Below are positions 22,970 to 54,246 of a DNA stretch of 64,000 nucleotides, piece after piece; the first letter of the stretch is position 1, and each line of letters starts with the position of its first letter. The position numbers were made by a program, and so were the translations under genes. Below the pieces are notes generated by a model that did no database searches, was not told the origin of the DNA, and was given only the letters and a program-made list of their open reading frames with translations. The stretch comes from Planctomycetota bacterium (GTDB lineage: Bacteria; Planctomycetota; Planctomycetia; Pirellulales; Pirellulaceae): contig JACNKX010000101.1 of the NCBI GenBank assembly GCA_014381825.1, positions 1 to 64,000 of the forward strand, given 5' to 3'.

Positions 22970-23048
22970 GCGGAGGTCCGGCGAAACCGACGAATCGTTT
23001 GACTGACAAATTAGCAAATTAGCAATACACGTAGAAGGAATATCAGCG

Positions 23049-23348
23049 ATGGCAAAGATGAAGATTCGCCCTTTGGATGATCGAGTGGTGGTTGAGCCGG
23101 TTGAGGCGGAAGAGACAACGGCAGGCGGGATCGTGTTGCCTGACTCCGCGAAGGAGAAGCCGCAGCGTGGCAAGATTCTGGCCGTTGGCGCTGGCCGATT
23201 GCTCGACAGCGGACAGCGCGGTGAGTTGTCGGTGAGCGTTGGCGACGAAGTGATTTACGGCAAATACGGTGGAACAGATATCGAAGTCAACGGCGACGAG
23301 GTTAAGATTCTTCGCGAGAGCGACATCTTGGCCAAGGTTGTCGATTAA
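23049..23348 (+). CDS. groES: Co-chaperonin GroES
   Basis: The 99-residue cap protein of the chaperonin has the family signature [17 protein letters not shown] at the N-terminus, a mobile loop [17 protein letters not shown] (about 22-38) and the conserved [20 protein letters not shown] near the end. It starts at ATG behind agaagga and lies 79 bp after groEL1 and 82 bp before groEL2. One GroES probably serves both GroEL paralogues. Confidence 0.97.
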
Positions 23349-23430
23349 TCACGTCAAAATCTTGCGGCACGACAACTTGGTCGAGTCGCGATTGACTCTA
23401 ACGAACACTCTAATATGAGGGTCTTCCAGC

Positions 23431-25089
23431 GTGGCGAAGCAATTACTTTTTGAAGACCACGCCCGTGCAAAGATGTTGCAGGGCGTCGATAAATTGGCCA
23501 ACGCCGTGGCGGTTACGATGGGCCCAACCGGTCGTAACGTGATCATCGACAAATCGTTCGGTGGTCCAACCGTCACTAAAGACGGTGTCACTGTGGCAAA
23601 AGAGATTGATCTCGAAGATCGCTTCGAGAACATGGGATCGAAGCTTGTCGTCGAAGTGGCTCAGAAGACATCTGACCTCGCCGGTGACGGTACGACGACA
23701 GCAACGGTATTGGCTCGAGCGATCTTCAAGGAAGGTCTTCGTAACATCGTTGCCGGAAGCAACCCGACTGCGATTCGTCGCGGAATTGAAAAGGCGGTTG
23801 CCGCAGCAGAGGACAAGCTTTTCTCGATGGCGAAGCCTGTATCGGATAAGCAGCAAGTTGCTCATGTCGGCGCGATCAGCGCCAACAATGACATGGTCAT
23901 TGGCGAACTGCTGGCCGATGCACTTCATCGTGTTGGCAAGGACGGTGTGATCACGGTCGAAGAAGGCAAGACGGCTGATACGCAAGTTGAATACGTCGAC
24001 GGCATGCAGTTCGACAAAGGCTTCGTTTCGCCGTATTTCATTAATCAACCGGCGGATATGAATTGCGTGCTTGAGAGCGCGCTGATTCTGATCCATGAGA
24101 AGAAGATCAGTAACCTTCGCGATTTGGTGCCGATCCTTGAGAAAGTTGGCCAATCCGGCAAGCCGTTGTTGATTATCGCCGAAGATGTTGATGCCGAAGC
24201 GCTGACACTTCTGGTCGTCAATAAGTTGCGTGGCGTGTTGAATGTCTGCGCCGTGAAGGCTCCTGGATTTGGTGATCGTCGTAAGGCGATGCTTGGCGAT
24301 ATAGCGACGCTAACCGGCGGGATGCTGGTCAGCGAAGATCTCGGCATTCAACTCGAAAGCCTCGAACTTGGCCACCTTGGTAGCGCTAAGAAGATCACTG
24401 TCGATAAGAGCAACACGACGATCGTTGAAGGTGCGGGCGAGCGAGCGGAGATCGACAAGCGGATCACTCAGATTCGCAACCAAATCGATCAATGCGACAG
24501 CGAGTACGACAAGGAGAAGTTTCAAGAACGTCTCGCAAAGCTTTCAGGTGGCGTTGCGGTCATTTCCGTAGGTGCCGAGACAGAAGCTGACATGAAGCAA
24601 AAGAAGGCTCGTGTCGAAGATGCGTTGCATGCAACGCGAGCTGCCGTCGAAGAAGGCATTCTGCCTGGCGGTGGCGTCGCTCTTCTCCGTTGCCGAGAAG
24701 CAGTCCAGTCGGTCAAGAGTTCACCACTGAAGGACGCCAATGGAACGACAATCGTTGCCGCCGCTAAGGGCGACGAGAAGACTGGCGTTGATATCGTCCT
24801 CCGTGCCCTCGACGGTCCGTTGCGTCAGATCGCCGACAATTGTGGAATCGACGGTTCGGTAATTGTGGATGAAGTCGCGCAGAAGCCAGAGACGCAGGGC
24901 TATAACGCCAACGCTGGCGAGTATACCGATATGTATAAAGCTGGCATTATCGACCCGGTCAAGGTTGTCCGAACGGCATTGAGCAATGCGGCAAGCATCG
25001 CCGGGCTGTTGTTGACGACTGAAGCACTGGTTACGAATTTTGACAAGGACGACAAAGACAAGCAACGCATCGAAGGCAGTGTTCGCTAG
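23431..25089 (+). CDS. groEL: Chaperonin GroEL, paralogue 2 (no Gly-Met tail)
   Basis: This second 552-residue GroEL starts at GTG and has complete equatorial, intermediate and apical domains ([30 protein letters not shown]). The C-terminus ends in charged residues ([16 protein letters not shown]) instead of Gly-Met repeats. The tail lines the folding chamber, so its loss suggests a paralogue with changed substrate handling. The gene ends the groEL1-groES-groEL2 unit and is followed directly by a strong terminator. Confidence 0.97.
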
Positions 25090-37954: not shown

Positions 37955-40900
37955 CTATGCCAATGCTAATTCGGTGGCCAAGAGCTCCAGCGTTTCTTCG
38001 TCCACCGGCAGACTCAACCAATCCTCGTTTTCGCTCGTCTCCAACGCGACTTGCCGAGCGTCGTCTGTTTGTTCGGTCATGTCTCGAAGGGCATAAGCCG
38101 TTACATCGACCAGGCGTGATCGAAGCAACTCAGGCAGATGCGATCCGTCGCTTGAGGTTTCCGGAGAGTTTGTGGGAGCGACGGTGAAGAGTGCTGTGAT
38201 CCCGCCTTCTCCTTCTTTGCTGCCGTCACCGTTCAGGAAGTTAATGATCAGTAACGCATCTAAAGGCGAAACGGATAGATCACCACTGGTGTCGTAGTAG
38301 AACGCCGGCAGTGCGCTGAGTAATTCTGGCGTGGCTAGCGGGCGAGCCCCCATCTCGTTCAGCGTGTTGATAATCACTAGTGCGTCTACAGGGGCAGTGT
38401 GCCCATCGCGGTTTGGGTCGAGTGCGTTGAACGGATTCCGCCAAGCGATTGTATTGGCAACTTCGATTGTTGCGCCAGCTTGAGTAAGCACATGAACATA
38501 TTGACCGTCGACTAGATTCGGTGGCTGAACCGTCCAATTCCCAACGTAATCAAGCGTGTCGTCCTCGCCATGGTGTATTCGTAGCGTGGCTGCCGTCTCG
38601 GAGATACCAAGGACACTCTGGCCGGTCAGTATTAGCGAATTGGCTCCGTTGCCGAGGATGTCAATGACTTCAACGCTGTGCAGATCGAGACTGTCGATGT
38701 TCGTAAGATCAAGACCCTGGCTACCGCCGGTAAGGACTAGGGCATCGTGACCGCTACCACCATTGAAGCCGAGCTTTCCTGCGAAGATCGCGCCGAGATT
38801 CGCGATGTTGAGCGTGTCGTCACCGCTGGTACCGTGAAATCCGAGTAGGCTCGTCCCGCCGCCACCAGCACGAAGAAGTTCCATCGAAGCGGAACTGGCC
38901 ACGATATCGTCTCCGTCAATCGATACTTCGGTCGAGCCCGCTGGCGGCAGATAGAATGCGACCACAGCGGTATTCGCATCTGAGACCGTCACGAGGTAGT
39001 CTTCCACCTCGCCACCGAATACGCCGCCTGTAGGCATTGCCGGACTATTTGTCGTACCCAAACGAAAGCGGGCATAGGTCGTCCGCACCGCGTTCTGTGG
39101 AACTTCAGGAAAGGACAATTGAACCTCACCATCAGTACCGTTGGGGACCGCCGCGATTGCCATCTCCGTGTCGTTGTCAAATACACCGTCGCCGTTGTAG
39201 TCAATCCATCCTGCCAATGCCGCTTCGATTCGGCTGGCGTTGAAAACGGTTACACGAACCTCCGACGTCTGGCCAAGAGTGAGTTGCAGATCTGCAAGGT
39301 TCACTCCATCGTCATCGTCGGTGCCCGCCGCGTCTCCATTCGCCTGAAAGGTAGGTTGCCCGTCCGCCTCGGTGTCTGGTGGGCCGCTGCCCATATAGAG
39401 ATCCTGCCATACGCCATGACGAGCACCATTCTCTTCCAATAACGTGTCGTAATTCAGCGTCGATGTCCCAGGACCGAAGTCAGGGGCATCGCCGTAGTCC
39501 AGTGTTGGCGAAACGAGTATCGATGTAGGGTGGTCTTCAACTTCACCATCCGAGGCGCGGCCGAACGAATTTGCCGCCGCGCTATCGGTGCTGATTCGAA
39601 ACCTGGAAAACGTATTGCCGAAGTCGCCAGCTAATGTGGGGACAGGCGGAAAGCTGAGAGTGACTTCTTCATTCACCGTGCCAGCAGGCACCGGCACTGA
39701 AGCCCGTTCCCCTTCATTCTCAAAGTCGCCATTCTGGTTGTAGTCGATCCAGCCATAGAGTGTGGCTGGCGAATCGCTGTTGTTCGTGACGTTAACGCGG
39801 ACATTGGGAGACTGGCCTACCAGCAAAGTCTGGATATAGAAGGAATCGACGACACCGTCTTCGTCGTCGATTCCTTCATTGTCATCACCAAAAGCGATTG
39901 GATGCACTAATGCGTTAATGGGTTCGAGATCTCCCGTGAGAGCGCCCATAAACACGTTGCTGTTGGCAGGATGCGACGGACCATTATCTGCCTCAACCGT
40001 ACGGTAATTGAAGAATCCTGTCCCCGCAGATCCATCAGGAGCGTCACCGTATTCGCGCGGCTTCGCTTCGATCTCGACCGTAAAGCCTTGTACTCTCTCT
40101 GGAGGTAAGTCTGAGGGGAAGACACTGCCCGATACACCTGTCTTACTGACATGGAATCGTGACCCCGTCGTGCCAAGTGGCGCATCACTGGGGATGTTGA
40201 ATGAGAATGTCTGAGTCTCGGAAGTTTGACCAATATCTTCGTTGAACAAGATCCGTTCTCGAAAGTCCTGGAAATCTCCGTCACCATTGAAGTCAATCCA
40301 TGCGTCTAGTCTGTTCGATACGGGATCAGGGTTCTGTAACTCAATCTCAACCTCGGCCCATTGTCGGGGCACGACGTCCGTGGAGAAAGAGGCTGTAACT
40401 TCCGGGTCCAAATCGCTGCCGACACCCAGTTCTCGAATTCGCACGTTGGGCCCGAACACCTGTGCCTCCTGCCTTTCTGGCAAGACAACATTGGGATATC
40501 GATGCCCCTCAATGTCTATACCGCATGCGGTGCCAGTTGGATGCGGATGAACGCGACCACCGATGTGGGTAACGCCGTCTGCGGGAAGCACGTCACTGGA
40601 TGTAACAAAGTTCGTGAAGACGTCGGTCGGCGTATCGAATTTCCAACTCCAATAGGCACTGAGTGCATAAGTCTCGCTCGGCAACAGGACAACATTGTTG
40701 GGCGTATCTTCAAACAGCCATTGTCCCACGCCTGCGTTGCCGACGACGGTGCTATTATCTGTAACCGTTACTGACGACAAGCTCTGACTATGGTTTACCG
40801 ATCCACCATCATAGATGTCTTGAAAGAAAACGTCCTCAAGAGAGGAGCCAGCGCCCTTCGTCAAATCCACGGATGTGCTGCCTAAGTCATTGACAAACTC

Positions 40901-41482
40901 AACCATCCACGGCCCACCAGCGTTTCCTGTAACTCTGACATTGTCTGCGGAGTCGGCATTCTGGCCTACGTTTGACAAGGCGGCCAAGCTGGATTGCACC
41001 TGGGCTGACGTTGCACCGAACGGAATGGCAGAGGTCGTCGCTGTGCTAGTGCCGGGCATTTCTACCTTTATCGTAAACGATGCGGCAGCGGACGCACTAT
41101 TGCGGGTGATAAGCGTAACGTCGCTGACGCCAACGCGCCACAGACTCACTTCATGTGAACCTTCAATTAACCCACGACCGCTGTTTTCCGTCTCGTCCCA
41201 GAAACCAAGTCCATCGACAACAACCGGATGATCGACGTGAAATTCCCATCCAAGTGAAATGTCGCATCCAGACGTACGCGTTTCTCCTACTTCGGAAAAT
41301 ATCAAGGCAGGCAGTGATGCAAGCAACCTCCGAGGTTCAAGCGTTTCAACGGCCAGTCGTCGTAAACGCGTCCTGTTTCCTTTGCGGTATCGCTTGCGAT
41401 TGGAGCGGTGGAAGGATCTCACGGGATAATCTCCTGGTGTTTGACAATTGGGCTGAACATTCTGAACCCAATTCAATTCCAT
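37955..41482 (-). CDS. Large surface protein with LEPR signal, GEVED modules and dockerin
   Basis: The 1175-residue protein carries a basic N-terminus and LEPRRLLAS (about 49-57), the planctomycete surface-protein signal. Three GEVED-type modules follow at about 370-880 (each with AWIDFNGDGDF or GWIDYN-type segments; two end GEVED). A dockerin-like pair near the C-terminus (NPFNALDPNRDGHTAPVDALVIIN and YYDTSGDLSVSPLDALLIIN, about 1035-1105) has Asp-rich calcium loops. The last 40 residues are acidic and resemble the end of the neighbouring 638-codon frame. ATG 41482 overlaps the upstream stop region by 10 bp in another frame, which suggests translational coupling. Confidence 0.85.
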   Translation of the reverse strand: MELNWVQNVQPNCQTPGDYPVRSFHRSNRKRYRKGNRTRLRRLAVETLEPRRLLASLPALIFSEVGETRTSGCDISLGWEFHVDHPVVVDGLGFWDETENSGRGLIEGSHEVSLWRVGVSDVTLITRNSASAAASFTIKVEMPGTSTATTSAIPFGATSAQVQSSLAALSNVGQNADSADNVRVTGNAGGPWMVEFVNDLGSTSVDLTKGAGSSLEDVFFQDIYDGGSVNHSQSLSSVTVTDNSTVVGNAGVGQWLFEDTPNNVVLLPSETYALSAYWSWKFDTPTDVFTNFVTSSDVLPADGVTHIGGRVHPHPTGTACGIDIEGHRYPNVVLPERQEAQVFGPNVRIRELGVGSDLDPEVTASFSTDVVPRQWAEVEIELQNPDPVSNRLDAWIDFNGDGDFQDFRERILFNEDIGQTSETQTFSFNIPSDAPLGTTGSRFHVSKTGVSGSVFPSDLPPERVQGFTVEIEAKPREYGDAPDGSAGTGFFNYRTVEADNGPSHPANSNVFMGALTGDLEPINALVHPIAFGDDNEGIDDEDGVVDSFYIQTLLVGQSPNVRVNVTNNSDSPATLYGWIDYNQNGDFENEGERASVPVPAGTVNEEVTLSFPPVPTLAGDFGNTFSRFRISTDSAAANSFGRASDGEVEDHPTSILVSPTLDYGDAPDFGPGTSTLNYDTLLEENGARHGVWQDLYMGSGPPDTEADGQPTFQANGDAAGTDDDDGVNLADLQLTLGQTSEVRVTVFNASRIEAALAGWIDYNGDGVFDNDTEMAIAAVPNGTDGEVQLSFPEVPQNAVRTTYARFRLGTTNSPAMPTGGVFGGEVEDYLVTVSDANTAVVAFYLPPAGSTEVSIDGDDIVASSASMELLRAGGGGTSLLGFHGTSGDDTLNIANLGAIFAGKLGFNGGSGHDALVLTGGSQGLDLTNIDSLDLHSVEVIDILGNGANSLILTGQSVLGISETAATLRIHHGEDDTLDYVGNWTVQPPNLVDGQYVHVLTQAGATIEVANTIAWRNPFNALDPNRDGHTAPVDALVIINTLNEMGARPLATPELLSALPAFYYDTSGDLSVSPLDALLIINFLNGDGSKEGEGGITALFTVAPTNSPETSSDGSHLPELLRSRLVDVTAYALRDMTEQTDDARQVALETSENEDWLSLPVDEETLELLATELALA

Positions 41483-43389
41483 GCGTTGGTAACATCTTCA
41501 GCAAGTTCATCGAGCAAGGCATCTAGTTCGTCCGTCGAAGTCAACTCTTGAGCATGCCGCGAACGGAAAGTCTTGATCGTTGCGGCATTTTCATCCAGCC
41601 AGTCGGACGACTTCGTGTAACGAGCATCCTCAGGCTCGACGAGTCGAGTGAGCGATCGACTGGTACTAGGATTTGCTGCATTAACAAACGATGAGCTGCT
41701 GCTTGGAGTTAGCCCGTTCCCGAAAGTAGTGTCAGCTAATACCGTGTCCTTGGCATACTGCGGCAGATCTGCTAATTCGCCTTCTGATCCGAGGATCGAT
41801 GAATTGATGTGATTGATGATGATTAGCGCATCGAGCGCCGTGACGGAACCATCTCCGTTAACGTCGTAGAAGAAATCATCTGACTCAGTGCGCTCCCGAA
41901 GCTCCAGCGTGTTGCCACGGGTGTGCTGTGGAGCGTTGATTTCGTTGATGATGATCAAGGCATCGAGCGCCGTGATTGAGTTGTCACCATTCGTATCTTT
42001 GGCTTCGCTTGGATTCTGCCAAGCTGGACCAGCCACCACGGTCGTCGTTGCTTCGGCGACGGCGAGCTTGCTTTCGATGTGCCCAACGTTGTCGGTCGCA
42101 ACACTGTAGAAGGAGTATGACTTTCCGTCTTCTCCAAGAAAGGAAGCGAAAGTCTCGGGTGTTCCCGCCAGCCACAGTTCGAATGGACCATCATCTGTCG
42201 AGACGAAAATGTCATACGAACCGACGCCAGAGCCACCGGCATCGTCTTGACCGGTCCAGGTAACGCTGAAGCTGTCGCTGGAGGTCTCCGGCAAAAGATC
42301 AACGGTACTCGTCGGCGTGCCGATGTCGATTGTGTGCGTCGTTGTGGGGGTCAGAATTGGATCGTTCACGTCGAAGAAGATATTGGCTTGGTTGTTGACT
42401 TTGGCACCGGATGCAAGCGAAGCGAGAGGCATTACAGAATAACTCACGAAACCTTCACCACTGCCGGTTTCTTTGTTGTTCACAGGCAGGAAGCCTGCAA
42501 ACGGGTCGGCTGGCGGTAACCCGGTATTCGGATCGAGGGAATCGAACACCCACGTTGCGATCCCCGTAGCTAGGTCGATATCGCCGGAAACTCTGACTAG
42601 AAGTGGCGTCCCGTCCGGATTCGTTGTGCTAACGGACTTCTCGAATTCGCGAACACCTGGGGGAACCGCGATTCGCAGTGAACCAAAACCAACACTTCCA
42701 AGCTCAAGCGTCTCCCAGTCAACGTGCTCCGAAAGCTGATCGACGATACGCACTTGCTGTGCGGCCGCAGTGGCGAATTCGGGATCGTTCTCAAAGTAGA
42801 TCGTGTACGGCAAGATTTGGTCGACAACGCGGTAGTTTTCAGGTCCGCTTCCTTGCGGGCCGACCTTATCGTTGGGGTCGAACGATCCGACTACTTGGAT
42901 ATTCTTGATCAGTCTGGAGTCCACATTCGGAGGCTTCGGGACCGGCGTCGGAGTGTTGTTAGAAACGTTAACATTGCCGTTGATTCGAGTGCTGACTGTA
43001 ACGCTCGTCAGAATTGTCTTAGCAACTCCGCATCTCAACAAGCGGTTTCCGAACCCATCAGGTCCACTGAGTTTCGCGTCGTCGTTGTCGAACTCATAAC
43101 GATCGCTGATTACATATTCCACATCCGCTCGGTAAGCTGCTAGTTTCGAACCGTCGTCGGCTTCAACGAACTTGATATCAATGTTCTTCACCGTAACCTT
43201 CAGTCCTTGAGTACCGCCAAAGGTCAGCTGGAGGCGGTAAAAGTCTCGATTGGTCGCGAGGATCTGCACAACCTCGCTAAGGTCGCCGATGCCGGAACTA
43301 TGTCCGGACGAGTCGTAGAAAGATACATTCGGCAGACCCTGGATCTCGAAACCCGTGACAGACATCGCGCCGGCTAGGAGTTGACTCAC
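41473..43389 (-). CDS. Dockerin-bearing C-terminal part of the giant surface protein (after in-frame TAA)
   Basis: This 638-codon frame has no signal peptide and no LEPR motif. It lies in the same reading frame as the giant beta-helix gene upstream, separated only by TAA (43398-43396) and two sense codons before a GTG at 43389. The parts are FDPNDKVGP with PYTIYFEN (a module common in large planctomycete surface proteins), an immunoglobulin-like section near 380-460, and a dockerin-like pair (DTNGDNSITALDALIIIN and YDVNGDGSVTALDALIIIN). It is best read as the C-terminal third of one protein, lost or made separately because of the stop. It could be translated alone from the GTG but would then not be exported. 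Confidence 0.75.
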   Translation of the reverse strand: MSQLLAGAMSVTGFEIQGLPNVSFYDSSGHSSGIGDLSEVVQILATNRDFYRLQLTFGGTQGLKVTVKNIDIKFVEADDGSKLAAYRADVEYVISDRYEFDNDDAKLSGPDGFGNRLLRCGVAKTILTSVTVSTRINGNVNVSNNTPTPVPKPPNVDSRLIKNIQVVGSFDPNDKVGPQGSGPENYRVVDQILPYTIYFENDPEFATAAAQQVRIVDQLSEHVDWETLELGSVGFGSLRIAVPPGVREFEKSVSTTNPDGTPLLVRVSGDIDLATGIATWVFDSLDPNTGLPPADPFAGFLPVNNKETGSGEGFVSYSVMPLASLASGAKVNNQANIFFDVNDPILTPTTTHTIDIGTPTSTVDLLPETSSDSFSVTWTGQDDAGGSGVGSYDIFVSTDDGPFELWLAGTPETFASFLGEDGKSYSFYSVATDNVGHIESKLAVAEATTTVVAGPAWQNPSEAKDTNGDNSITALDALIIINEINAPQHTRGNTLELRERTESDDFFYDVNGDGSVTALDALIIINHINSSILGSEGELADLPQYAKDTVLADTTFGNGLTPSSSSSFVNAANPSTSRSLTRLVEPEDARYTKSSDWLDENAATIKTFRSRHAQELTSTDELDALLDELAEDVTNAWN

Positions 43390-43395
43390 GATTTC

Positions 43396-46300
43396 TTAAC
43401 GCGCCTGAAATCTCGCTGCTTTGTTGATTTCAAAGAAAGAGTCGCGATTGCCTGTGTTGCTATCGAGCACATTGCGCGCGATACGAGTTCCTGAGAAGTC
43501 TCTCCTTCCGCCAACGCCGTTCATGTAGTCCAACAGCAGTTTCGCAGGCTCCTCTCCACCTGCTATCTGGATGGCAGCAGCCCACTGACTCAGGGACTGC
43601 CTGTACTCAAGGATCTTCTCCGGTGAGCAATCCAACGTCTGGGCATTGTTGCCCTCAGCTTCGCCATGTGAACTCGAAATTACGATGGGGCTAGTCGAGT
43701 GTTCTGGTTCCGGCAGGATGGGACTCGCGTCGTAAAGTACGTCGGCGGCTGCCTGCACGAGCAGTTCTCTCACGGAGTGGACGGGCGATCCGCTTTTGGA
43801 GGCACTGTTCTGTACTGCCGTTCGTATCAACGAATCATTCAATTCGTTCCAGGAATTGCCAAGGTCTCGTCGAAGCCCAGCTACAACATCGACGCTGTCA
43901 ACACTATCTCCGTTGAAACCTAACGCAGCGACTAGCTCGTGATAGTCAACAACGGCATCGCTCGGCTCAACAATAGAGACCTCAAGATCTGCCGACGATT
44001 GCCTCGGAGGATTGATTGTCAGTCTAATCGTTTCTGCCTGGCCGGGCCGCAACGCTCCCGCCGAACCGCCAGAACTTGTGCCGATCAACATCAGCGAGTC
44101 CGCGACCATCACCGAGTCGTCCGGGCCTTGCAATTTCGTACCCAGAGAACCGTCAATGACGAAGAGCGGTGCTGAGACATCAATACTGCCAGCATTGCTG
44201 TACTGCAGAAAGACATCGAACGGGCGGCCCTGGCGAACGACCTCAGGAACCACTAGGTCAACTTCAATCAGCGAGTTTCCCCCGTTAGCTACAACAAACG
44301 AATCGATGGAACGTGTGGACTGTATTGTAGTGACGTAACTCGACTCACCTTGAGTTATGAAAGCGTTCTCCGCTTCGATTTCGTAGTCACCGACCGGTAC
44401 GTTAACGAGACTGAACTCGGCATAAACTCTATCGTTTCGAGTCTCCGTAACACTCCCCGTGGCGACGACGTTGTCGCTCGCATCAACCAGGCGGAACACG
44501 GTATCACGGCTAAATCCCGCGCCTACCACTTCCAAGGTCACCGAGCCTGCATTCCCTGCCGAAGCGGGTCGAAACTCGGAGATTCCGAACGGGGTTGTAG
44601 AAGCGCTGAGTGTCGCGTTCGCGGTTGAATCGTTCCCTAGCGAAGCTGCATAAGCGAGTACATAGAACGTCTCCTCGCCACCGTAGTGTTGTTGCATTTC
44701 GACATCGGCTCCTGGTCCTATCACGTTCGATTCGAAGTCGCTTCGTGTGGGGAGGCGGCCACGTGCGATGTAGAGTTCATTGATGCCCTGATCGTCCTCG
44801 TCGTTCAGCGAGATAAGAAGGTCGCTTCCGAGTTCATCGACCTCCGGAGTATTGAGAACGAAATAACGTGCCGTATCGCCCGGTGTGAATGCCACGTCAA
44901 TGGAACCGCCCAACTGAATCTCGGGGAGTTCGAGACGCACAAGCGTCGACGATGAGGCAACCGATGTATTGTTTCGAATATTGATTCCTTCAAACAGCGA
45001 AGCGTCGAAGTTAGTCCGAACGATGAGATAGTAAGAACCCCCTGAAACGATAGGTAGAGTGATGTCTGCGGACTTTGTATAGGCTTCGTTCGCACCTAGG
45101 GGCCCGGATTGGGAGAAGATCCCGAGCGAGACATCGTCGATTGACCACGCGGCGTCGGTTGATAGGAAGACAGAATCATTCCATACACCTCGTGCGACGT
45201 CTGAACCCAAGTTTCGGACGCGCCATTCGAGGCTTATCGATGAGCCAGTTGCCCCGAGGTCTGGGGCGGATGTATAGTCTGCTACAAGATCTACGTTCGA
45301 TGGTGCGGTTTCCGCGAACTCAAACGCACCCATGTCGGCAAAGGTGCCGTTCACCGTGGCTTGGCCCGTGTTTCCAACTCGCGGATCGTCGTAGCGTGGC
45401 GCGCCGGTGGCATCGACATCAGGTGCGGCAGTTCCATCGGCCGCATCAATCGCCGGACTTAGGTAGTCGAGCCGGTAGACGCCATTACTTGCATCAATGT
45501 ACTTCGGATCAATCGAGACATTGCCATTGCTGCCAACCGGATCAGGAAACCCGCGTGAATTGTCGCCACCAGGTGTGTAGAGGTTGGAGTAGCTGACGGT
45601 TGGGTCAGGATTGATGTCGTTGTCGATGGCAACGGCGATACTGTTGCTGATGATCGTGTTTACGACGTTCAAATCGCCACCATGCGCAAGCATACCGACG
45701 CGGTTATCATGGAAGGTGCTGTTGAGCACTTCGACATCAGCATCATTTGCCCACGAAACAACTCCTCTGTCCGCAGTTTCGATGACTGTATTGGTAACTG
45801 TGGTCAAGCCACCTTGTGTGAGCACGCCATCGAAGAATGCTTCGCTCAGGCGACTGTTCTTAACCTCAAGTGACGCAACCCCGGTGGTGCGGAGCATGCC
45901 CGACTGTTGCCAAAAACCTGTTGCACTGCCCCCGCCAAAGCTAATCTTGGTGTGGTCGAACCTTGCGGTTCCACCAGCAATGTGTACAGCAAGCCAATCA
46001 CCTGCAAAGGGCACCGCTTTATTGCCGTCGAAATTTGTATCACCTCCCACAGAATCGTCGTGAATCGACGTGATGTGGACTGGATTCGCCCTTGTTCCAT
46101 TAGATTCAAGGACTCCCCCGGATTCGACTGTCAGACTCGTCAGTTCATCGAATTTGACGACCGTTCCCGCATTGATGGTTACCGTGACGCCGCCGATGAT
46201 GGTGGCATCATCCTCCATGATGACGAGCCCGCCCCAAATGGTATCTGTGTCGATGTTGCCTGATACCCGAAAGATGTCCGCCAAAGTGAAATCTGCGAAG

Positions 46301-49300
46301 TACTGATCGCCGATTGCTTCACCACTTGTTCCATCGCGGTCTTGATCCAAAACGTTGCCACTGACATCCCGGAGTGTCGGGTTGAGTATTAATTCGTAAC
46401 GGCCTAACGCCGACTGTGTCGCGAACAAGACCTCGAGGGTCCTTGCATCTGGCCAATTCGAGTCGGCCAGCGGAATCACTTCGTCGTCTGGGCCGGTAAA
46501 GCTCGCGACCGCATCGGCAAGCACGAAGGATGCCGTGTCCATGTCTCGATCGAACTGCAACGTAATCCGATCAACCGTTCCCCCAAGGAAATTGTTCGGT
46601 GAGTGACTGACGACTTCCGGAGCAGTAATTGTCCAAGTAGCCGAGTAACGATCGTCAACAGCCTCACCACGCACTCCATCGCCGTCTTGATCTAAGGTAT
46701 CCCCGTTCGTGTTTAAAACAGCTGGCCCAAGCACTAACGAATAGTCACCTGCCTTTCCCTGCTCTGGGTACGAAATGACGACTCGGTTCGAATTGAGCCA
46801 ACGAAATCCAGTGACTGCGATTGACCCATCGGGTCCGGTAAAGCTCAGGACGTCTGTCGCGGGATCGAAGCTGGTGGTATCCATCTCCTCTCGGAAGGTG
46901 AACTCCACAGTACTGTGAGCACGCGTCACTTCACCTCGCGGCCAGTGTCGCGTTGGGCGGGGAAGACCACCGTACTCGTACGCGCCAATGTCGTAGTAAG
47001 TTGGTTCGCCGGCTCCAGTGTCGGGGACATCGGCTTTGTCGACTCGCCAGTTGAAATCGATGTCGTCCGCTGGCGCAGCTTCGCTCGTTGCTGCATCGAT
47101 TACAGGAGAATCAGGGTGGAGTTGATAGTCTTGTTTCTCGCGGTCAACGTACAACGGATCGACCGAGATGTTGCCACGCGTTCCAGTCCGGTCTTCCAGC
47201 CCGTCATAGTTCCGACTTCCTGGGTTAAAAACGTTGTTGAAGCTCGCGTCGAGAGTACCTTCGTTGGCCAGGATGATGCCGGCGGAAAAAGTGCGGCCAC
47301 CGTTATGTGTGACGAGATTATTCCGCAACGTGGCGGCTGCGCCATCGAGTCCGATACCTACAGCATTGTCCGCCACGGTGTTGTTGACCGCTAAGAACGT
47401 CGATCCGTCACTCGCGATGATCCCATGCAGCCGGTTGCTATGCATCAGCGAGTTCTCGATGGTTGCTTGCGCACGATTGACAAGCTGTACACCAAAATTG
47501 CCGGAGTCTCGAACGATCGTGTTGGCGATGTTTGCTTGGCCTCCGTTTACGTACACTTGCGTGCCAATAGCGCCAACTTGGCCACCGTAGCGAAGCTCGG
47601 CGAACTCAATCGAGTTGCCCGTACCCCTCAGTTCAATACGTCCCCAATCACCCGGGTTGCCTGTCGTCGGGGCGTTCGAGTTGTTTGCGTTTCCGCCGAT
47701 ACTGTCGTCTCGATATGACGTAATAACAATCGGCTGACCAGGAACACCGCGCGCGTTCAACTTGCCATCAAAGATCAGGTTGAAGTTCCGCCCTTTGATG
47801 ACTTGGCCAGGTCCGATGGTCAACGTCGCTCCAGCGGGGACTCGTGTTTCTCCCGCATCCAGATAGTACGTGATGCTGCCGTTGTCCCACACCGTCTCGG
47901 TGTTATCGGGTAACGAGCCCTTCGGCAGGAACAAGCCATTGATTCCGTTGCCACTCGTGGTGATTCGCTCAAGGATCGGACGCGAAGTCAAGTCCTGACG
48001 TGCTGCCCAAAAGCGATTCCCCTCGAACGTCACGTTGCTGATCGTGGGGGCACTCTGCACAATATCGAGACCTGCTTCACCTCCTAAGACGACGCTATTG
48101 CTGAGGGTTAGTTCGCTGTTGTCAACCAGAATCTGCCCCGGTCCTTCAAATCCCCCGTAACGCACCTCGACATGATCCAGTACATTCCCGACGCTCGTGC
48201 TGGTGAACTGTATGCCATGCCACCTTCTGAAACCGCCGACCGTTGGCGTTGCGCTGTTATTCGTGTTGCCTCCCGCCGTGTCGTCGAGGTCTGACGTGAA
48301 GACGACCGGTTCGTCCCCGGTTCCCAGGGCTTCCAGAGTTCCATTAACAATTAGCTCGTCGGCCGAGCGTCCTCCGTCGAACTTCACGACTTGATCCGCC
48401 ATCACCATCAGCTTCTTGCCTTCGGCCACCGTTACGTCACCGGCAACCAAGTAGGTTATGTCGCCGTCATCCCATTTGGTGTCTTCGTTAATTGTTCCGC
48501 CGTCAACAACCAGAGCATTCGTTCCATTGCCGGTAACGGTTACGGCTTGAATGTCGGGATCCGAGGTCAGATCCATGCGCGCAGCCCAAAACCTTTGATT
48601 CAGAAACGAGACGCCTCGCACGACTGGCTGAGCCTGCTGGATCTGCAGCCCGGTGATTCCATCGCGAATCACGCTGTTGGTGATCGCTAGCTCACTTTGA
48701 TCGACCAGAATCTGCGGTCCGGCGAAGCCTCCGTAGCGGACTTCTACGTGGTCCATCTGGTTGTCGATGCTGGTGCTGGTGAACTGGATGCCGTGCCAGT
48801 CACCGCTACGCCCGGTCGTCGGAGTCGTGCTGTTGTTGGTGTTCCCTCCCGTCGAGTCGTCGCGGTCGGAGGTGAAGACAATCGGTTGATTGGCTGTTCC
48901 AAGCGCCTTCAGTGTTCCGTTGACGATCAGCTCGTCCGCCGCTCCTCCGCCGTCGAACTTGATCACTTGCCCAGGCTCGATGGTTAACGTCTTGCTTTGA
49001 TCAACGGTGACATCACCGCCGATCCAATAGACAATATCTGGATCATCCCATTTGCTGTTCGAGGCAATCGTGCCGCCTTCGACAAACATGCCATTGATGC
49101 CGTTGCCGGAAATCGTCACGTCGCTGATCGCCGGGTCGGAAGGGAGATCCATCAATGCAGCCCAGTGGCGGTGGTTGATGACGGAGACTCTTTCCACAAT
49201 CGGGTTGCTTTGACGAATCAGCAAACCCGAGTCTCCATCACGAATGAGGCTGTCAGTCAGAGATAACGTGGCGTTATCGACGACGAGATGCCCTCCCACG

Positions 49301-49794
49301 CCAACGCCGCCGAACCGGAGTTCGACGTGAGCCATGTTGCCAGAACTGTCTGGTGCAAACTCGATGTTGCTCCATGCTCCGCGGAAGCCTTGTGAAGGCC
49401 CATCGCCATTAGTATCCAGGTCGTCCGCCGTACCCAATTCGCCATCAAATCCAGTGTCATCACGATCTGAAGTGAAGAGGATTCGATCCTGCTCAGTGCC
49501 AGTGGCATTCAGTGTTCCTTCCACCTGCATCTTGCGTGAGCGATTGAATTGAATCAGCGTTCCCGGTTCAATCGTCAGCGTAGATCCAGAAGGAACGCGC
49601 ACGTCGGCTGTTAAGCGGTGGACATCTTCTTTGCCCCACACGGTGCCATCGGGAACATCGCCCGCCCAGTTGACGACTGCCAACAGCATCCGCGGTTCGA
49701 GCTGCTCCAAGAAATGGATTCGTCGCTTGAGCCAATTTACCTTGGTATGTCTCTGCCTTGTTGTCCGTTTCCTTTGTCGTCTCTTGATGTACAT
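43396..49794 (-). CDS. Giant LEPR surface protein with beta-helix repeats and CARDB-like domains
   Basis: From ATG 49794 the protein has 2132 residues. A good GGAGG (minus strand, 49805-49801) supports this start over an ATG at 49914 inside the upstream gene. After a very basic N-terminus comes LEPRMLLA (32-39). The right-handed beta-helix region (about 40-1000) contains four copies of a 190-residue module (WDDxDITY, LTIEPGQVIKFDGG, VFTSDRDD, WHGIQFTSTS, HVEVRYGGF). Bacterial Ig-like modules, another beta-helix and CARDB-like domains follow. It ends FEINKAARFQAR-TAA in frame with the next coding segment. It is likely cell-envelope anchored and adhesive or structural. It lies 28 bp after the kinase stop codon. 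Confidence 0.85.
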   Translation of the reverse strand: MYIKRRQRKRTTRQRHTKVNWLKRRIHFLEQLEPRMLLAVVNWAGDVPDGTVWGKEDVHRLTADVRVPSGSTLTIEPGTLIQFNRSRKMQVEGTLNATGTEQDRILFTSDRDDTGFDGELGTADDLDTNGDGPSQGFRGAWSNIEFAPDSSGNMAHVELRFGGVGVGGHLVVDNATLSLTDSLIRDGDSGLLIRQSNPIVERVSVINHRHWAALMDLPSDPAISDVTISGNGINGMFVEGGTIASNSKWDDPDIVYWIGGDVTVDQSKTLTIEPGQVIKFDGGGAADELIVNGTLKALGTANQPIVFTSDRDDSTGGNTNNSTTPTTGRSGDWHGIQFTSTSIDNQMDHVEVRYGGFAGPQILVDQSELAITNSVIRDGITGLQIQQAQPVVRGVSFLNQRFWAARMDLTSDPDIQAVTVTGNGTNALVVDGGTINEDTKWDDGDITYLVAGDVTVAEGKKLMVMADQVVKFDGGRSADELIVNGTLEALGTGDEPVVFTSDLDDTAGGNTNNSATPTVGGFRRWHGIQFTSTSVGNVLDHVEVRYGGFEGPGQILVDNSELTLSNSVVLGGEAGLDIVQSAPTISNVTFEGNRFWAARQDLTSRPILERITTSGNGINGLFLPKGSLPDNTETVWDNGSITYYLDAGETRVPAGATLTIGPGQVIKGRNFNLIFDGKLNARGVPGQPIVITSYRDDSIGGNANNSNAPTTGNPGDWGRIELRGTGNSIEFAELRYGGQVGAIGTQVYVNGGQANIANTIVRDSGNFGVQLVNRAQATIENSLMHSNRLHGIIASDGSTFLAVNNTVADNAVGIGLDGAAATLRNNLVTHNGGRTFSAGIILANEGTLDASFNNVFNPGSRNYDGLEDRTGTRGNISVDPLYVDREKQDYQLHPDSPVIDAATSEAAPADDIDFNWRVDKADVPDTGAGEPTYYDIGAYEYGGLPRPTRHWPRGEVTRAHSTVEFTFREEMDTTSFDPATDVLSFTGPDGSIAVTGFRWLNSNRVVISYPEQGKAGDYSLVLGPAVLNTNGDTLDQDGDGVRGEAVDDRYSATWTITAPEVVSHSPNNFLGGTVDRITLQFDRDMDTASFVLADAVASFTGPDDEVIPLADSNWPDARTLEVLFATQSALGRYELILNPTLRDVSGNVLDQDRDGTSGEAIGDQYFADFTLADIFRVSGNIDTDTIWGGLVIMEDDATIIGGVTVTINAGTVVKFDELTSLTVESGGVLESNGTRANPVHITSIHDDSVGGDTNFDGNKAVPFAGDWLAVHIAGGTARFDHTKISFGGGSATGFWQQSGMLRTTGVASLEVKNSRLSEAFFDGVLTQGGLTTVTNTVIETADRGVVSWANDADVEVLNSTFHDNRVGMLAHGGDLNVVNTIISNSIAVAIDNDINPDPTVSYSNLYTPGGDNSRGFPDPVGSNGNVSIDPKYIDASNGVYRLDYLSPAIDAADGTAAPDVDATGAPRYDDPRVGNTGQATVNGTFADMGAFEFAETAPSNVDLVADYTSAPDLGATGSSISLEWRVRNLGSDVARGVWNDSVFLSTDAAWSIDDVSLGIFSQSGPLGANEAYTKSADITLPIVSGGSYYLIVRTNFDASLFEGINIRNNTSVASSSTLVRLELPEIQLGGSIDVAFTPGDTARYFVLNTPEVDELGSDLLISLNDEDDQGINELYIARGRLPTRSDFESNVIGPGADVEMQQHYGGEETFYVLAYAASLGNDSTANATLSASTTPFGISEFRPASAGNAGSVTLEVVGAGFSRDTVFRLVDASDNVVATGSVTETRNDRVYAEFSLVNVPVGDYEIEAENAFITQGESSYVTTIQSTRSIDSFVVANGGNSLIEVDLVVPEVVRQGRPFDVFLQYSNAGSIDVSAPLFVIDGSLGTKLQGPDDSVMVADSLMLIGTSSGGSAGALRPGQAETIRLTINPPRQSSADLEVSIVEPSDAVVDYHELVAALGFNGDSVDSVDVVAGLRRDLGNSWNELNDSLIRTAVQNSASKSGSPVHSVRELLVQAAADVLYDASPILPEPEHSTSPIVISSSHGEAEGNNAQTLDCSPEKILEYRQSLSQWAAAIQIAGGEEPAKLLLDYMNGVGGRRDFSGTRIARNVLDSNTGNRDSFFEINKAARFQAR
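47850..49620 (-). repeat. Tandem coding repeats (about 573-576 bp) in the giant surface gene
   Basis: Four diverged copies of a roughly 190-codon module lie head to tail. Landmarks such as the WDD-encoding ccatttggtgtc (near 48472) and ccatttgctgtt (near 49048) are about 576 bp apart. The copies share the segments VKFDGG, DELIVNGTL, FTSDRDD and HVEVRYGG. Each module is one stretch of beta-helix rungs. Confidence 0.7.
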
Positions 49795-49822
49795 CAGGGA
49801 CCTCCGGAGGGCTTTACACTCT

Positions 49823-52800
49823 CTAACTTCGGGCCGCGTGGTTTCCGTTTTCGGACGAATCGGCCACGCCCGTACCTTGGCCCTCTTCAAAGTTCCAATG
49901 CGCCACCAGGCCATGATTCAGGTCGCTGTTGGATGTTGCCGAAGCGCCCGTGGTCTCGCTTGGTGTTTGGGCTGCTTCGAACGTGCCGAAGTCGGAGATG
50001 ATGTCGCATTGGGGCAAAGCGGCTTTGAGGCGGAGAATGCCGTCGCGGGTGAGTTTCAGGCTACCCGTGAGCTCGAGCTCTTTCAAATGTTTCATCTCGG
50101 CCAGAGGTGTGAGCGCACCGTCGGTAAGATTTTGGTGTCCTTGTAGTCTTAACTCTCTCAAGTTGGAGAGCGACTTCAGATGAATCAACAGTGAGTCAGA
50201 TGAGTTAGCGGTATACCCTATGATCAAACTCGAAATGTTCGTCAGGAGTTCAACGTCCTGGGATTCAGCAAGTTTGCCATGTTTGATTTCTAATCTGTCC
50301 AGGTTCGGCAACTGTGCTAATGCCTTCGCGCTGTCATCGGTGAACATCGAGGCATCAATCTCAACGTACTCCAGGCTCGGAATTCGACTGAGGTTTTGAA
50401 AATCGGTTGGCTGAATCTGAGTTCCTTCTAAAACCAGGGATTTTAGGTTCGCAAGCCCGTTAAGGTGATCTAATCCCGCAGCTGAGATTTCGGTTTCCGA
50501 GACGCTGAGGTTTTGTAAGTTCGAAAGATGGGCCAGGTGTCGCAAACCGTCATCGGTGATCGGCGTTCCATTCAGAAAGAGCCATCGCAGGTGACTCAGG
50601 TTACGGAGATGTGCGAGTCCCGCGTCCGTAACATTAGTCTCGCTGAGTACGACCGACCCGATGAGACTCTGTTTGCCGATCCACTCGAGCGTCACATCGG
50701 TGATCGACGTGCTCCCCAGATTGAGGTCATTCAGACTGCTCAAGTTTCGGAGATGCGCGAGTCCCGCGTCTGTAACATTAGTATCATTGAGCGAGAGCCT
50801 ACCAGTGAGATTCAGTTTGCCAATGCGTTTCAGCGTCATATCGGTAAACCTCGCATTGCGAGTCAAGTCGATGGACACTATCCATCGTAGACGTTCGATT
50901 CCCGCCAGGTCATCGTCGGTGACCGACTCGCTACGTATGCTCCATAACTTATACGGTTCTGTCGGCAATTTGCTGAAGCTGTCACACGTGACACGGTGGA
51001 TTCGACCGTAGGCATCCACATATTCCAGGCCTACAATTCCCCCAAGCTTCAATACTCGCTCGGCGATCGTTCGATCCAGATCTGACTGCAGCCGAGAGTG
51101 GCTGCTGGCGGGCACTGAATCGGACGTGTCACTATCCCATTCGCGGATGCGTATGTTCCGGAAGCGGATGGTGCCGCTCCATGTCTGCAATGCGATTCGC
51201 GCTGGGCGTTTGACGTCGTGCAGGTAAGAGTGCTTGACCGGGTCCGTGCTGACGCGAGCCATCCAGTTATCACTGCCGATATCGCACACGACGACTTGCA
51301 CGTCGTTCAACCAGTGTTCGATGCGTTTTCCGCGGGACACGATCCGTGACGAATTCCACTCGCCGACGGGATAAGCTTGCAGCGACATCACAGGGTAAAG
51401 ATCCTGTAACACCCCCGAGTCGCTGCCGTTGCTCAACTGGTACTCCAACGCGGGACGCGGGACGCGTCCGCCGAACACCGTTTCGACATCTTCGCCAGCG
51501 TGATAGATCACGCCGCCATCGGTACCGTCTTGGACGAGCCATTCAAACTCCAGGTCGAACTCGCCGAACTTCCTTCGAGTCATGATGTGTTGTTTGCCAC
51601 CGGACCCAACAAGTTCTTGATCAACAATCTGCCACTCGTCCGGAATCGCCTCGTCCTCCAATCCTTGCCAAGCATCTACGGAAGTCCCGTCGAAGAGGAC
51701 TTGCCACTGTCTCGCTTCGGTATCAAGTTTGTCCGTCTTCGACTGAACGGGCGTCGCAGCTAACTGGTGTTCGTCGAACGGCGTTCCGCCTCTGGCCACC
51801 TGGACTTTGGCACCTTCCAGCAGCGTGACGCGCAGGTCCACCTGCTCGCCCTTGCCAACGGTAAACTCTTTGGTCTGAAACGTCGTGCCGCCCGCTGTGA
51901 TCTTCAGCGTATGCTCACCCGGCTCGATTTCGAACTCGCCGTGTTTGCCTTGGATGCGGTAGCGATCTTCTCCGCTGACGGCGACTTCGATCGATGGATC
52001 GGTGATCTCGATGCGAACCGTGCCATACTTGCTGGGCAGCAGCAGGATGATGGCCGCAAATAGCCCAATCATGCCCAGACTCGCCGCGACCATCATCGGC
52101 CACCGCGGCGGCTTGTTTCCTTTTGACTTAACCTGAGTACTCGGTTCTCGAAGAGGCGTGTCGGCGTGCGGCTTCGTTGGCACAGCTGCCACGGAGTCCG
52201 ACGACTTGAAGTCATTTGTCTCTGCGGAACTGCCGGTTTCCGGTGCCGCTGGTTCTGCGAGTGCGAGGTCTAATAACGCCCCTAAGTCACTCGTATTTGC
52301 GAAAAGTGTCAGAGCCTCAGCGACTTCTTGCGGTGTGGATGGACGAGTCTCTGGATCGCGGGAGATCATGCGATCAATCAGCTCGACTAGTTCGTTCGGA
52401 AGCTCCGGTCTTTTTTCGCCAATGGATGATGGAGTTTCATTTGCCAGCGCCATCATCATCTTGACTGGTGTGTCGTACTTACGCCTGGGAAATGGCGTTT
52501 CGCCGCAAAGCAGCTTGTACAGCGTTGCTCCCAACGAATAGATATCAGCACGGATATCGACCTCGTGGCTGTCGCCTCCTTGTTCGGGAGCCATGTACGC
52601 CAGCGTACCCATCATCTGTCCGGTGTTGGTCAGATCCTTCCCTTGATGCTGCTGTTCGTCTAACAGTGCCAGCCCCAAATCAAGGATCTTCACGGAAGGC
52701 TGAGCATCTCGACTAGCGAGCATCAAGTTCGATGGCTTGATGTCGCGATGAACCATGCCACACTCGTGTGCATGCTGCAGACCTACAGCCGCTTGACGGA

Positions 52801-53428
52801 CTATTTCACAGGCATCGGCGAAGCCTAACGGACCCATGCGACGAATAAGTTTCGAAAGGTCGAGGCCAGCAACATATTCCATCACGAGGTAATGTATGCC
52901 GCTCGCCTCACCGGCGTCGTGCGCGGACACGATGTTTGGATGGTGCAACGCCCCGACCGCTTCCATTTCGCGTTCAAAGCGGGCAATCGCTTTCACGTCT
53001 CGCATTCGTTCGACCGACAGCACCTTGATGGCGACGATCCGCTTCAGCTTGGTGTGCATCGCTTTGTACACCGCGCCCATACCGCCTTCGCCCAGTTTCT
53101 CCACGAATTGATAGGGCCCAATTTGTCCCAAGTCGGCCAGTGCGGGGAACGAGTCCTGGCCGGAAGCGAACGACGATTCGTGGCCGATGGCTCGAATCAG
53201 AGAGGCAGCGCGATCTAGCGCCGATTCGTATTGGTACGGGTCCTGCGGAGTGGGTCGCCGAAGTGCGGAAGCCAACGTGTCGCCCCCGTCGCCAATCGTG
53301 TCGATCATCGCGCGACACGATTCGCAGCTATTCAGATGTTCGCCAATCTGCTGCATTGGGTCTGGAGACGACTTGCCGGTGGCGAATTGAGTTAGTTCAT
53401 CGCGTGTCGGGCAGGTAACCGTTTGCAT
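49823..53428 (-). CDS. Ser/Thr kinase with ZAS-like N-terminus, DUF1080 and LRR, truncated in a LamG domain
   Basis: The 1201-residue protein begins with a zinc anti-sigma-like motif H31-x3-C35-x2-C38. The kinase domain (about 105-375) has GEGGMGAVY, K135, HRDIKPSN (227-234), DLG (250-252) in place of DFG, and APEQ. One membrane segment (about 445-465) follows. The outer part has a PEGA-like domain, a DUF1080 (3-keto-disaccharide hydrolase/concanavalin-like) domain (about 575-770) and leucine-rich repeats (about 850-1150, DTNVTDAGLAHLRNLSSL type). It ends GLVAHWNFEEGQGTGVADSS and about ten more residues, the first strand of a LamG domain, so a LamG domain was lost at the 3' end. It follows an ECF sigma gene. 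Confidence 0.9.
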   Translation of the reverse strand: MQTVTCPTRDELTQFATGKSSPDPMQQIGEHLNSCESCRAMIDTIGDGGDTLASALRRPTPQDPYQYESALDRAASLIRAIGHESSFASGQDSFPALADLGQIGPYQFVEKLGEGGMGAVYKAMHTKLKRIVAIKVLSVERMRDVKAIARFEREMEAVGALHHPNIVSAHDAGEASGIHYLVMEYVAGLDLSKLIRRMGPLGFADACEIVRQAAVGLQHAHECGMVHRDIKPSNLMLASRDAQPSVKILDLGLALLDEQQHQGKDLTNTGQMMGTLAYMAPEQGGDSHEVDIRADIYSLGATLYKLLCGETPFPRRKYDTPVKMMMALANETPSSIGEKRPELPNELVELIDRMISRDPETRPSTPQEVAEALTLFANTSDLGALLDLALAEPAAPETGSSAETNDFKSSDSVAAVPTKPHADTPLREPSTQVKSKGNKPPRWPMMVAASLGMIGLFAAIILLLPSKYGTVRIEITDPSIEVAVSGEDRYRIQGKHGEFEIEPGEHTLKITAGGTTFQTKEFTVGKGEQVDLRVTLLEGAKVQVARGGTPFDEHQLAATPVQSKTDKLDTEARQWQVLFDGTSVDAWQGLEDEAIPDEWQIVDQELVGSGGKQHIMTRRKFGEFDLEFEWLVQDGTDGGVIYHAGEDVETVFGGRVPRPALEYQLSNGSDSGVLQDLYPVMSLQAYPVGEWNSSRIVSRGKRIEHWLNDVQVVVCDIGSDNWMARVSTDPVKHSYLHDVKRPARIALQTWSGTIRFRNIRIREWDSDTSDSVPASSHSRLQSDLDRTIAERVLKLGGIVGLEYVDAYGRIHRVTCDSFSKLPTEPYKLWSIRSESVTDDDLAGIERLRWIVSIDLTRNARFTDMTLKRIGKLNLTGRLSLNDTNVTDAGLAHLRNLSSLNDLNLGSTSITDVTLEWIGKQSLIGSVVLSETNVTDAGLAHLRNLSHLRWLFLNGTPITDDGLRHLAHLSNLQNLSVSETEISAAGLDHLNGLANLKSLVLEGTQIQPTDFQNLSRIPSLEYVEIDASMFTDDSAKALAQLPNLDRLEIKHGKLAESQDVELLTNISSLIIGYTANSSDSLLIHLKSLSNLRELRLQGHQNLTDGALTPLAEMKHLKELELTGSLKLTRDGILRLKAALPQCDIISDFGTFEAAQTPSETTGASATSNSDLNHGLVAHWNFEEGQGTGVADSSENGNHAARS

Positions 53429-53649
53429 TTCACTACTTCCTTGGCCGGGATCAAATAATCCTTCGAGCTTCTATAAGGTTCAACGAAAGTACCTTACACG
53501 ACTTTTCTTGCGATTTCGGTGAATCTGCTCGACGGCGAGTTAACACACACCGTGTTAATGCTTTACGACCTCGGGGAATTCGAGTCAGGACTCTCAACGG
53601 GTGAGAAGAGTAGGCGCGAGCATCTCGCTCCAGCTAGGCCTCGGGCACC

Positions 53650-54246
53650 TCAGATCAGCCCTTCAATCTCTTCACGAAGCCGACGCAGCACGCGTGACTT
53701 GGCGGTGTAGACCGCGCCGACTTTCATTCCCAGTTCTTCAGCCACGACAGCAGGATTCTGGCCACCGATCGCAACGCGCAGGAAGGCCTGCCAAGTCCGC
53801 GTCTCAAACTCGTCTCGCACCAACTCCAGCGCCCGATGGGCTAGACCGGCTGTCAAGTCGCTGTCTGACGAATGCTCTTCGTCTGGCGGCGAATCAGGAA
53901 TACTCTGAAGCTGTTGATTGGCGTCTGTGCCACCAACCGCACTAGGCCTCGACGACAGCCATTGGAAATAGTCTCGCAACTTATTACGAGTGATGGTCCA
54001 CAGCCAGCCGCGGAAGCTGCTGCCTGGTTCTTCTCGACGGAAACTGCCGATGCCGTTCGCGACAGCCCGGAAGACCTCTTGTGATACGTCGGCAGCATCG
54101 TTGTCTTGCAAGCCTGCTTGTCGGCACCAACGATACACAATCGGACCATAGAGCTTCGTGAACCGATCCCATGCGTCGGCATCAAATTCCTTGACACGAT
54201 CCAACAATGACAGCGAAGTCGAACTAGAGCTTTGTCGAGTCGGCAT
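53650..54246 (-). CDS. ECF RNA polymerase sigma factor
   Basis: From ATG 54246 the protein has 198 residues, the normal ECF size. The sigma-2 domain (about 10-85) has WDRFTKLYGPIVYRWCRQAG, DAADVSQEVFRAV and RGWLWTITRNKLRDYFQW. The sigma-4 domain (about 130-195) ends GQNPAVVAEELGMKVGAVYTAKSRVLRRLRE. The gene lies 221 bp upstream of the Ser/Thr kinase that carries a zinc anti-sigma-like motif, the arrangement of planctomycete sigma/kinase pairs. It probably controls the kinase and surface-protein genes. The frame open to 54342 adds no homologous residues. Confidence 0.9.
   Translation of the reverse strand: MPTRQSSSSTSLSLLDRVKEFDADAWDRFTKLYGPIVYRWCRQAGLQDNDAADVSQEVFRAVANGIGSFRREEPGSSFRGWLWTITRNKLRDYFQWLSSRPSAVGGTDANQQLQSIPDSPPDEEHSSDSDLTAGLAHRALELVRDEFETRTWQAFLRVAIGGQNPAVVAEELGMKVGAVYTAKSRVLRRLREEIEGLI

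Follow-up and report, generated by a model that had tools for sequence, protein, structure and literature searches.

A planctomycete ECF sigma factor and a receptor kinase with a predicted anti-sigma domain encoded directly upstream of LEPR surface protein genes

Introduction

Many ECF sigma factors and Ser/Thr kinases of planctomycetes have no known target or mechanism. The two can be encoded side by side: in the groups ECF59, ECF61, ECF62 and ECF217 an ECF gene lies next to a Ser/Thr kinase (STPK) gene, and the acidic motif of region 2.2 is largely kept. According to a review, such planctomycete groups are usually co-expressed with the STPK and not with an anti-sigma factor, and STPK-linked groups other than ECF43 keep the acidic motif or a sequence near it and may work differently (PMC8999054). 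One comparison is EcfP/PknT of Vibrio parahaemolyticus (ECF43), likewise encoded as neighbours, in which STTA replaces DAED and phosphorylation of EcfP is needed (PMC8999054). Class I zinc anti-sigma factors such as ChrR, RsiW and RslA carry an H-x3-C-x2-C motif. A further planctomycete feature is the LEPR (Planc_extracel) protein family of Studholme et al. 2004, giant repeat proteins with an LExLExRxLLA-type N-terminal motif and dockerin.

Here we describe a locus in which these elements meet, located in a 64,000-nt stretch of planctomycete DNA (the window) from a genome of 9.7 Mb in 238 contigs. The initial annotation knew of no described system of this composition, which does not apply to the sigma-kinase part: the ECF-kinase pair is of an already known planctomycete kind (PMC8999054). 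The locus differs from the STPK-linked groups as reviewed in that the kinase itself bears the anti-sigma domain, from ChrR, RsiW and RslA in that this domain is fused to a Ser/Thr kinase with a large periplasmic sensor, and from the set of Studholme et al. 2004 in that the LEPR genes lie directly behind an ECF-kinase pair. The anti-sigma domain of such kinases may already have been described in Jogler 2012, Casas-Pastor 2021 or Wiegand 2020. An anti-sigma domain inside a kinase would offer a direct and testable wiring, and linkage to LEPR genes would provide candidate targets.

Results and Discussion

Layout of the locus

The order ECF factor, kinase, giant, continuation and GEVED/dockerin protein on the minus strand, as initially annotated, is confirmed by ORF coordinates and Pfam matches, and re-measuring the gaps gave the same values of 221 bp, 28 nt, 6 bp and a 10-bp overlap. 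The features are as follows:

53650..54246, minus strand: ECF sigma factor, 198 aa (TIGR02937, 61.7 bits; Pfam Sigma70_r2)
49823..53428, minus strand: transmembrane Ser/Thr kinase, 1201 aa, with anti-sigma domain, Pkinase, TM helix, DUF1080 (PF06439), LRR and a LamG-like stub
53285..53428, minus strand: predicted N-terminal anti-sigma domain of the kinase with H-x3-C-x2-C, about residues 1-48
43396..49794, minus strand: LEPR surface giant, first part, with the motif LEQLEPRMLLA, beta-helix and CARDB, ending at an in-frame TAA
43396..43398, minus strand: in-frame TAA between the giant and its C-terminal part
41473..43389, minus strand: C-terminal part of the giant, DUF7619 and dockerin, without a signal of its own
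37955..41482, minus strand: LEPR surface protein, 1175 aa, with three GEVED domains and dockerin

The neighbours on either side are ordinary: PIG-L and Maf genes precede the block in the same orientation, and downstream of it a peptidase M19 gene lies on the opposite strand. Elsewhere in the window, at 21242-25089, two Cpn60/TCP-1 family genes adjoin each other.

The LEPR motif itself was found in both the giant and the GEVED protein. Against the Planc_extracel profile (PF07595, cut-off 25.5 bits) the GEVED protein scored 18.6 bits in the protein scan and 24.9 bits in the genome scan, or 25.6 bits with its neighbours in frame, while the giant reached 17.3 bits. Dockerin_1 exceeded its cut-off of 22.9 bits in both surface proteins (59.9 and 29.4 bits).

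The kinase and its anti-sigma domain

The kinase carries a Pkinase domain (184.7 bits in Pfam) with the catalytic motifs GEGGMG, VAIK, HRDIKPSN and DLG, followed by one TM helix at about residues 446-464. Because this helix precedes DUF1080 (PF06439, 111 bits) and the LRR found with Pfam, we place both across the membrane. Among the domains found only in the periplasmic part of such kinases, DUF1080 is the most abundant according to a survey (PMC11032199).

The ZAS-like H-x3-C-x2-C motif noted before is indeed present in the kinase N-terminus. On the whole kinase zf-HC2 scored 14.5 bits, under its cut-off of 22.2 bits. Among the non-redundant ECF-kinase pairs in the loci that we read, 82 of 98 have H-x3-C-x2-C near the N-terminus of the kinase, and zf-HC2 matches 58 of 75 such N-termini. 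A profile built from these 75 sequences found ChrR in a search of PDB sequences with an E-value of 1e-8 over residues 2-97, followed by DdvA, RslA and RsiW; because the motif was the criterion by which the sequences had been picked, H31, C35 and C38 are invariant by construction, which is not the case for the other matched positions. The predicted N-terminal model (pLDDT 80) gave individually weak Foldseek E-values of 0.4 and up, with anti-sigma factors on all of ranks 1-16 in the PDB, and its best VIA-align hit was again ChrR (Z 7.6). Homology of the kinase N-terminus to anti-sigma domains is thus well supported by profile and fold comparison. Of the earlier proposal that the kinase acts both as anti-sigma factor and as envelope sensor, the N-terminal homology and the position of DUF1080 and LRR beyond the TM helix hold; the two roles themselves are what we infer from them.

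Region 2.2 of the ECF factor reads DAAD, is invariant in eight aligned relatives and contains no Ser/Thr inside the motif. The structure predicted from the single ECF sequence was poor (pLDDT 66) and was left out of the argument. These features bear on the way in which the kinase might act. A kinase that activates the sigma factor by phosphorylation, as PknT does with EcfP, and uses the zinc domain as a mere docking site would suit an ECF factor paired with a catalytically complete STPK, but EcfP has no acidic DAED, whereas here DAAD is kept and has no Ser/Thr within it, so that the absence of the acidic motif that marks ECF43 is not seen (PMC8999054), and the N-terminus resembles a full anti-sigma domain; we regard such a mode as highly improbable.

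The last ~27 residues of the kinase, GLVAHWNFEEGQGTGVADSSENGNHA, resemble by eye the start of a LamG domain of which the remainder is missing; no profile matched this end. In the kinase of locus L248 a similar stretch is internal and continues into further sequence. As the end of the kinase looks like a LamG stub, the junction between kinase and giant may have been rearranged.

An interrupted giant surface gene

The longest ORF of the giant overlaps the end of the kinase gene, and its likely start is the ATG at 49794, with GGAGG six bases upstream and at 28 nt from the kinase. Pfam recognised five Beta_helix stretches. The first part of the giant (P0003) and the following ORF (P0004) share one reading frame, which is interrupted by a TAA and two further codons, and at seven related loci a single ORF matches both halves; in one of these seven a single alignment spans the break, where the sequence is poorly conserved. 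The contiguity of the giant and its continuation is therefore upheld, with the correction that the two are one frame split by a TAA: judged by frame and by these relatives they form one gene, whether the TAA is a real stop or an assembly artefact. With a stop in the giant and a LamG-like end cut short in the kinase, the copy in the window may be decaying or may have been rearranged recently.

Homologues of the giant elsewhere have no ECF or kinase gene nearby. This brings up the alternative that the pair regulates something else and that a deletion removed the LamG domain of the kinase and joined an unrelated giant locus to it, which would make the surface genes chance neighbours. The LamG-like stub with its 28-nt junction, the isolated giant homologues and the paralogous pairs without surface genes in the same genome all fit such a history; against it stands the recurrence of such neighbours at the same position and on the same strand in other planctomycetes (7/39 vs 3/514, see below), and we consider it rather unlikely.

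Linkage of ECF-kinase pairs to LEPR genes

The window's genome contains 15 ECF relatives; for the 14 other than the present one, the loci that we read showed no LEPR gene. A conserved five-gene cassette was rejected, as there are paralogous pairs without surface genes and giant homologues away from any ECF or kinase gene. Conservation of gene order, which had been proposed as a check, is thus absent for the exact set, but is seen for the class-level link from kinase to LEPR gene.

LEPR genes were called with a regular expression plus basic residues, on genes defined crudely as longest ORFs. With these calls, a LEPR gene on the same strand lies within 500 bp in 8 of the 81 pairs for which 1.2 kb or more of downstream sequence was available; none of the 81 has a LEPR gene on the other strand up to 8 kb away. 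When the window is left out, LEPR genes account for 7 of 39 next same-strand genes after kinases, compared with 3/514 other next-gene pairs in the same loci (p 5e-7, kinship ignored) and 14/1,327 background ORFs (p 8e-7, kinship likewise ignored). The linked cases span several genomes, two of them coming from G244; whole-genome counts of G244 and G187 were kept out of the test because both genomes were chosen after hits had been seen there. Control kinases without an ECF gene nearby gave 1/15 LEPR, too few to help. Around 142 ECF genes, LEPR genes were located in the co-directional run in 11 cases, divergently upstream in 4 and convergently in 2. In the related loci L213 and L216 the LEPR gene is convergent with the ECF gene, and a gene of 347-349 aa replaces the kinase. 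The 75% ECF match in G026:C340 is not independent of the window's genome, as 10,946 bp of this contig match C23 of that genome without a difference (loci L054/L055 and L100); with G026 a bin placed in another genus, this identity points to misbinning or a shared element.

The linkage of ECF-kinase pairs to LEPR surface genes is therefore real at the level of the class. The linked proteins mostly have different architectures (PD40 repeats; FG-GAP with Calx-beta; He_PIG; GEVED), so the linkage concerns a class of genes and not orthologues. The LEPR protein of L206 has GEVED in common with the window, and the choice-of-anchor Q domains of the window's giant recur in those of L236 and L239.

A proposed switch

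From this anatomy we consider it probable that the kinase, as combined anti-sigma factor and receptor, holds the ECF factor and frees it on a signal to transcribe the locus including the surface genes. The cytoplasmic N-terminus with its putative zinc anti-sigma domain would keep the ECF factor at the membrane, and the periplasmic DUF1080 and LRR domains would detect a signal from the envelope or surface. The kinase might then phosphorylate itself or the sigma factor, which would alter its grip, and the freed factor would transcribe its own locus. Here the locus would include two presumably secreted proteins, the stop-interrupted beta-helix giant and the GEVED protein, with dockerin near both C-termini. 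Control of the surface genes by the pair is plausible from the gene arrangement, and the class-level linkage lends it comparative support; weighing against a dedicated partnership is that about one tenth of the pairs have a LEPR neighbour, mostly of different architecture.

As such neighbourhoods far exceed chance in other planctomycetes, a widespread putative sigma/kinase switch may often control surface proteins. More broadly, and tentatively, planctomycetes could possess a large switch family whose transmembrane receptor kinases also serve as anti-sigma factors of the adjoining ECF factors, with the turning on of giant secreted surface proteins as a recurrent use.

Promoter and motif searches

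No promoter element common to the ECF and surface genes was found, which counts against the proposed switch, and scans for sigma-70 promoters and terminators gave no more hits than in shuffles. Where the ECF gene and the kinase gene are transcribed divergently, we noted between the two a strand-specific motif of ~22 bp, GATGAACGC-N-GGCGTCTGACAC, located upstream of the ECF gene (L247, L253, L271, L275, L276, L277, L285, L288, L295 and L058). In four such loci tried, the region had no Rfam match. The motif was present in 11 of 24 divergent pairs compared with 0 of 118 other ECF loci, and it is possibly a promoter, operator or leader element.
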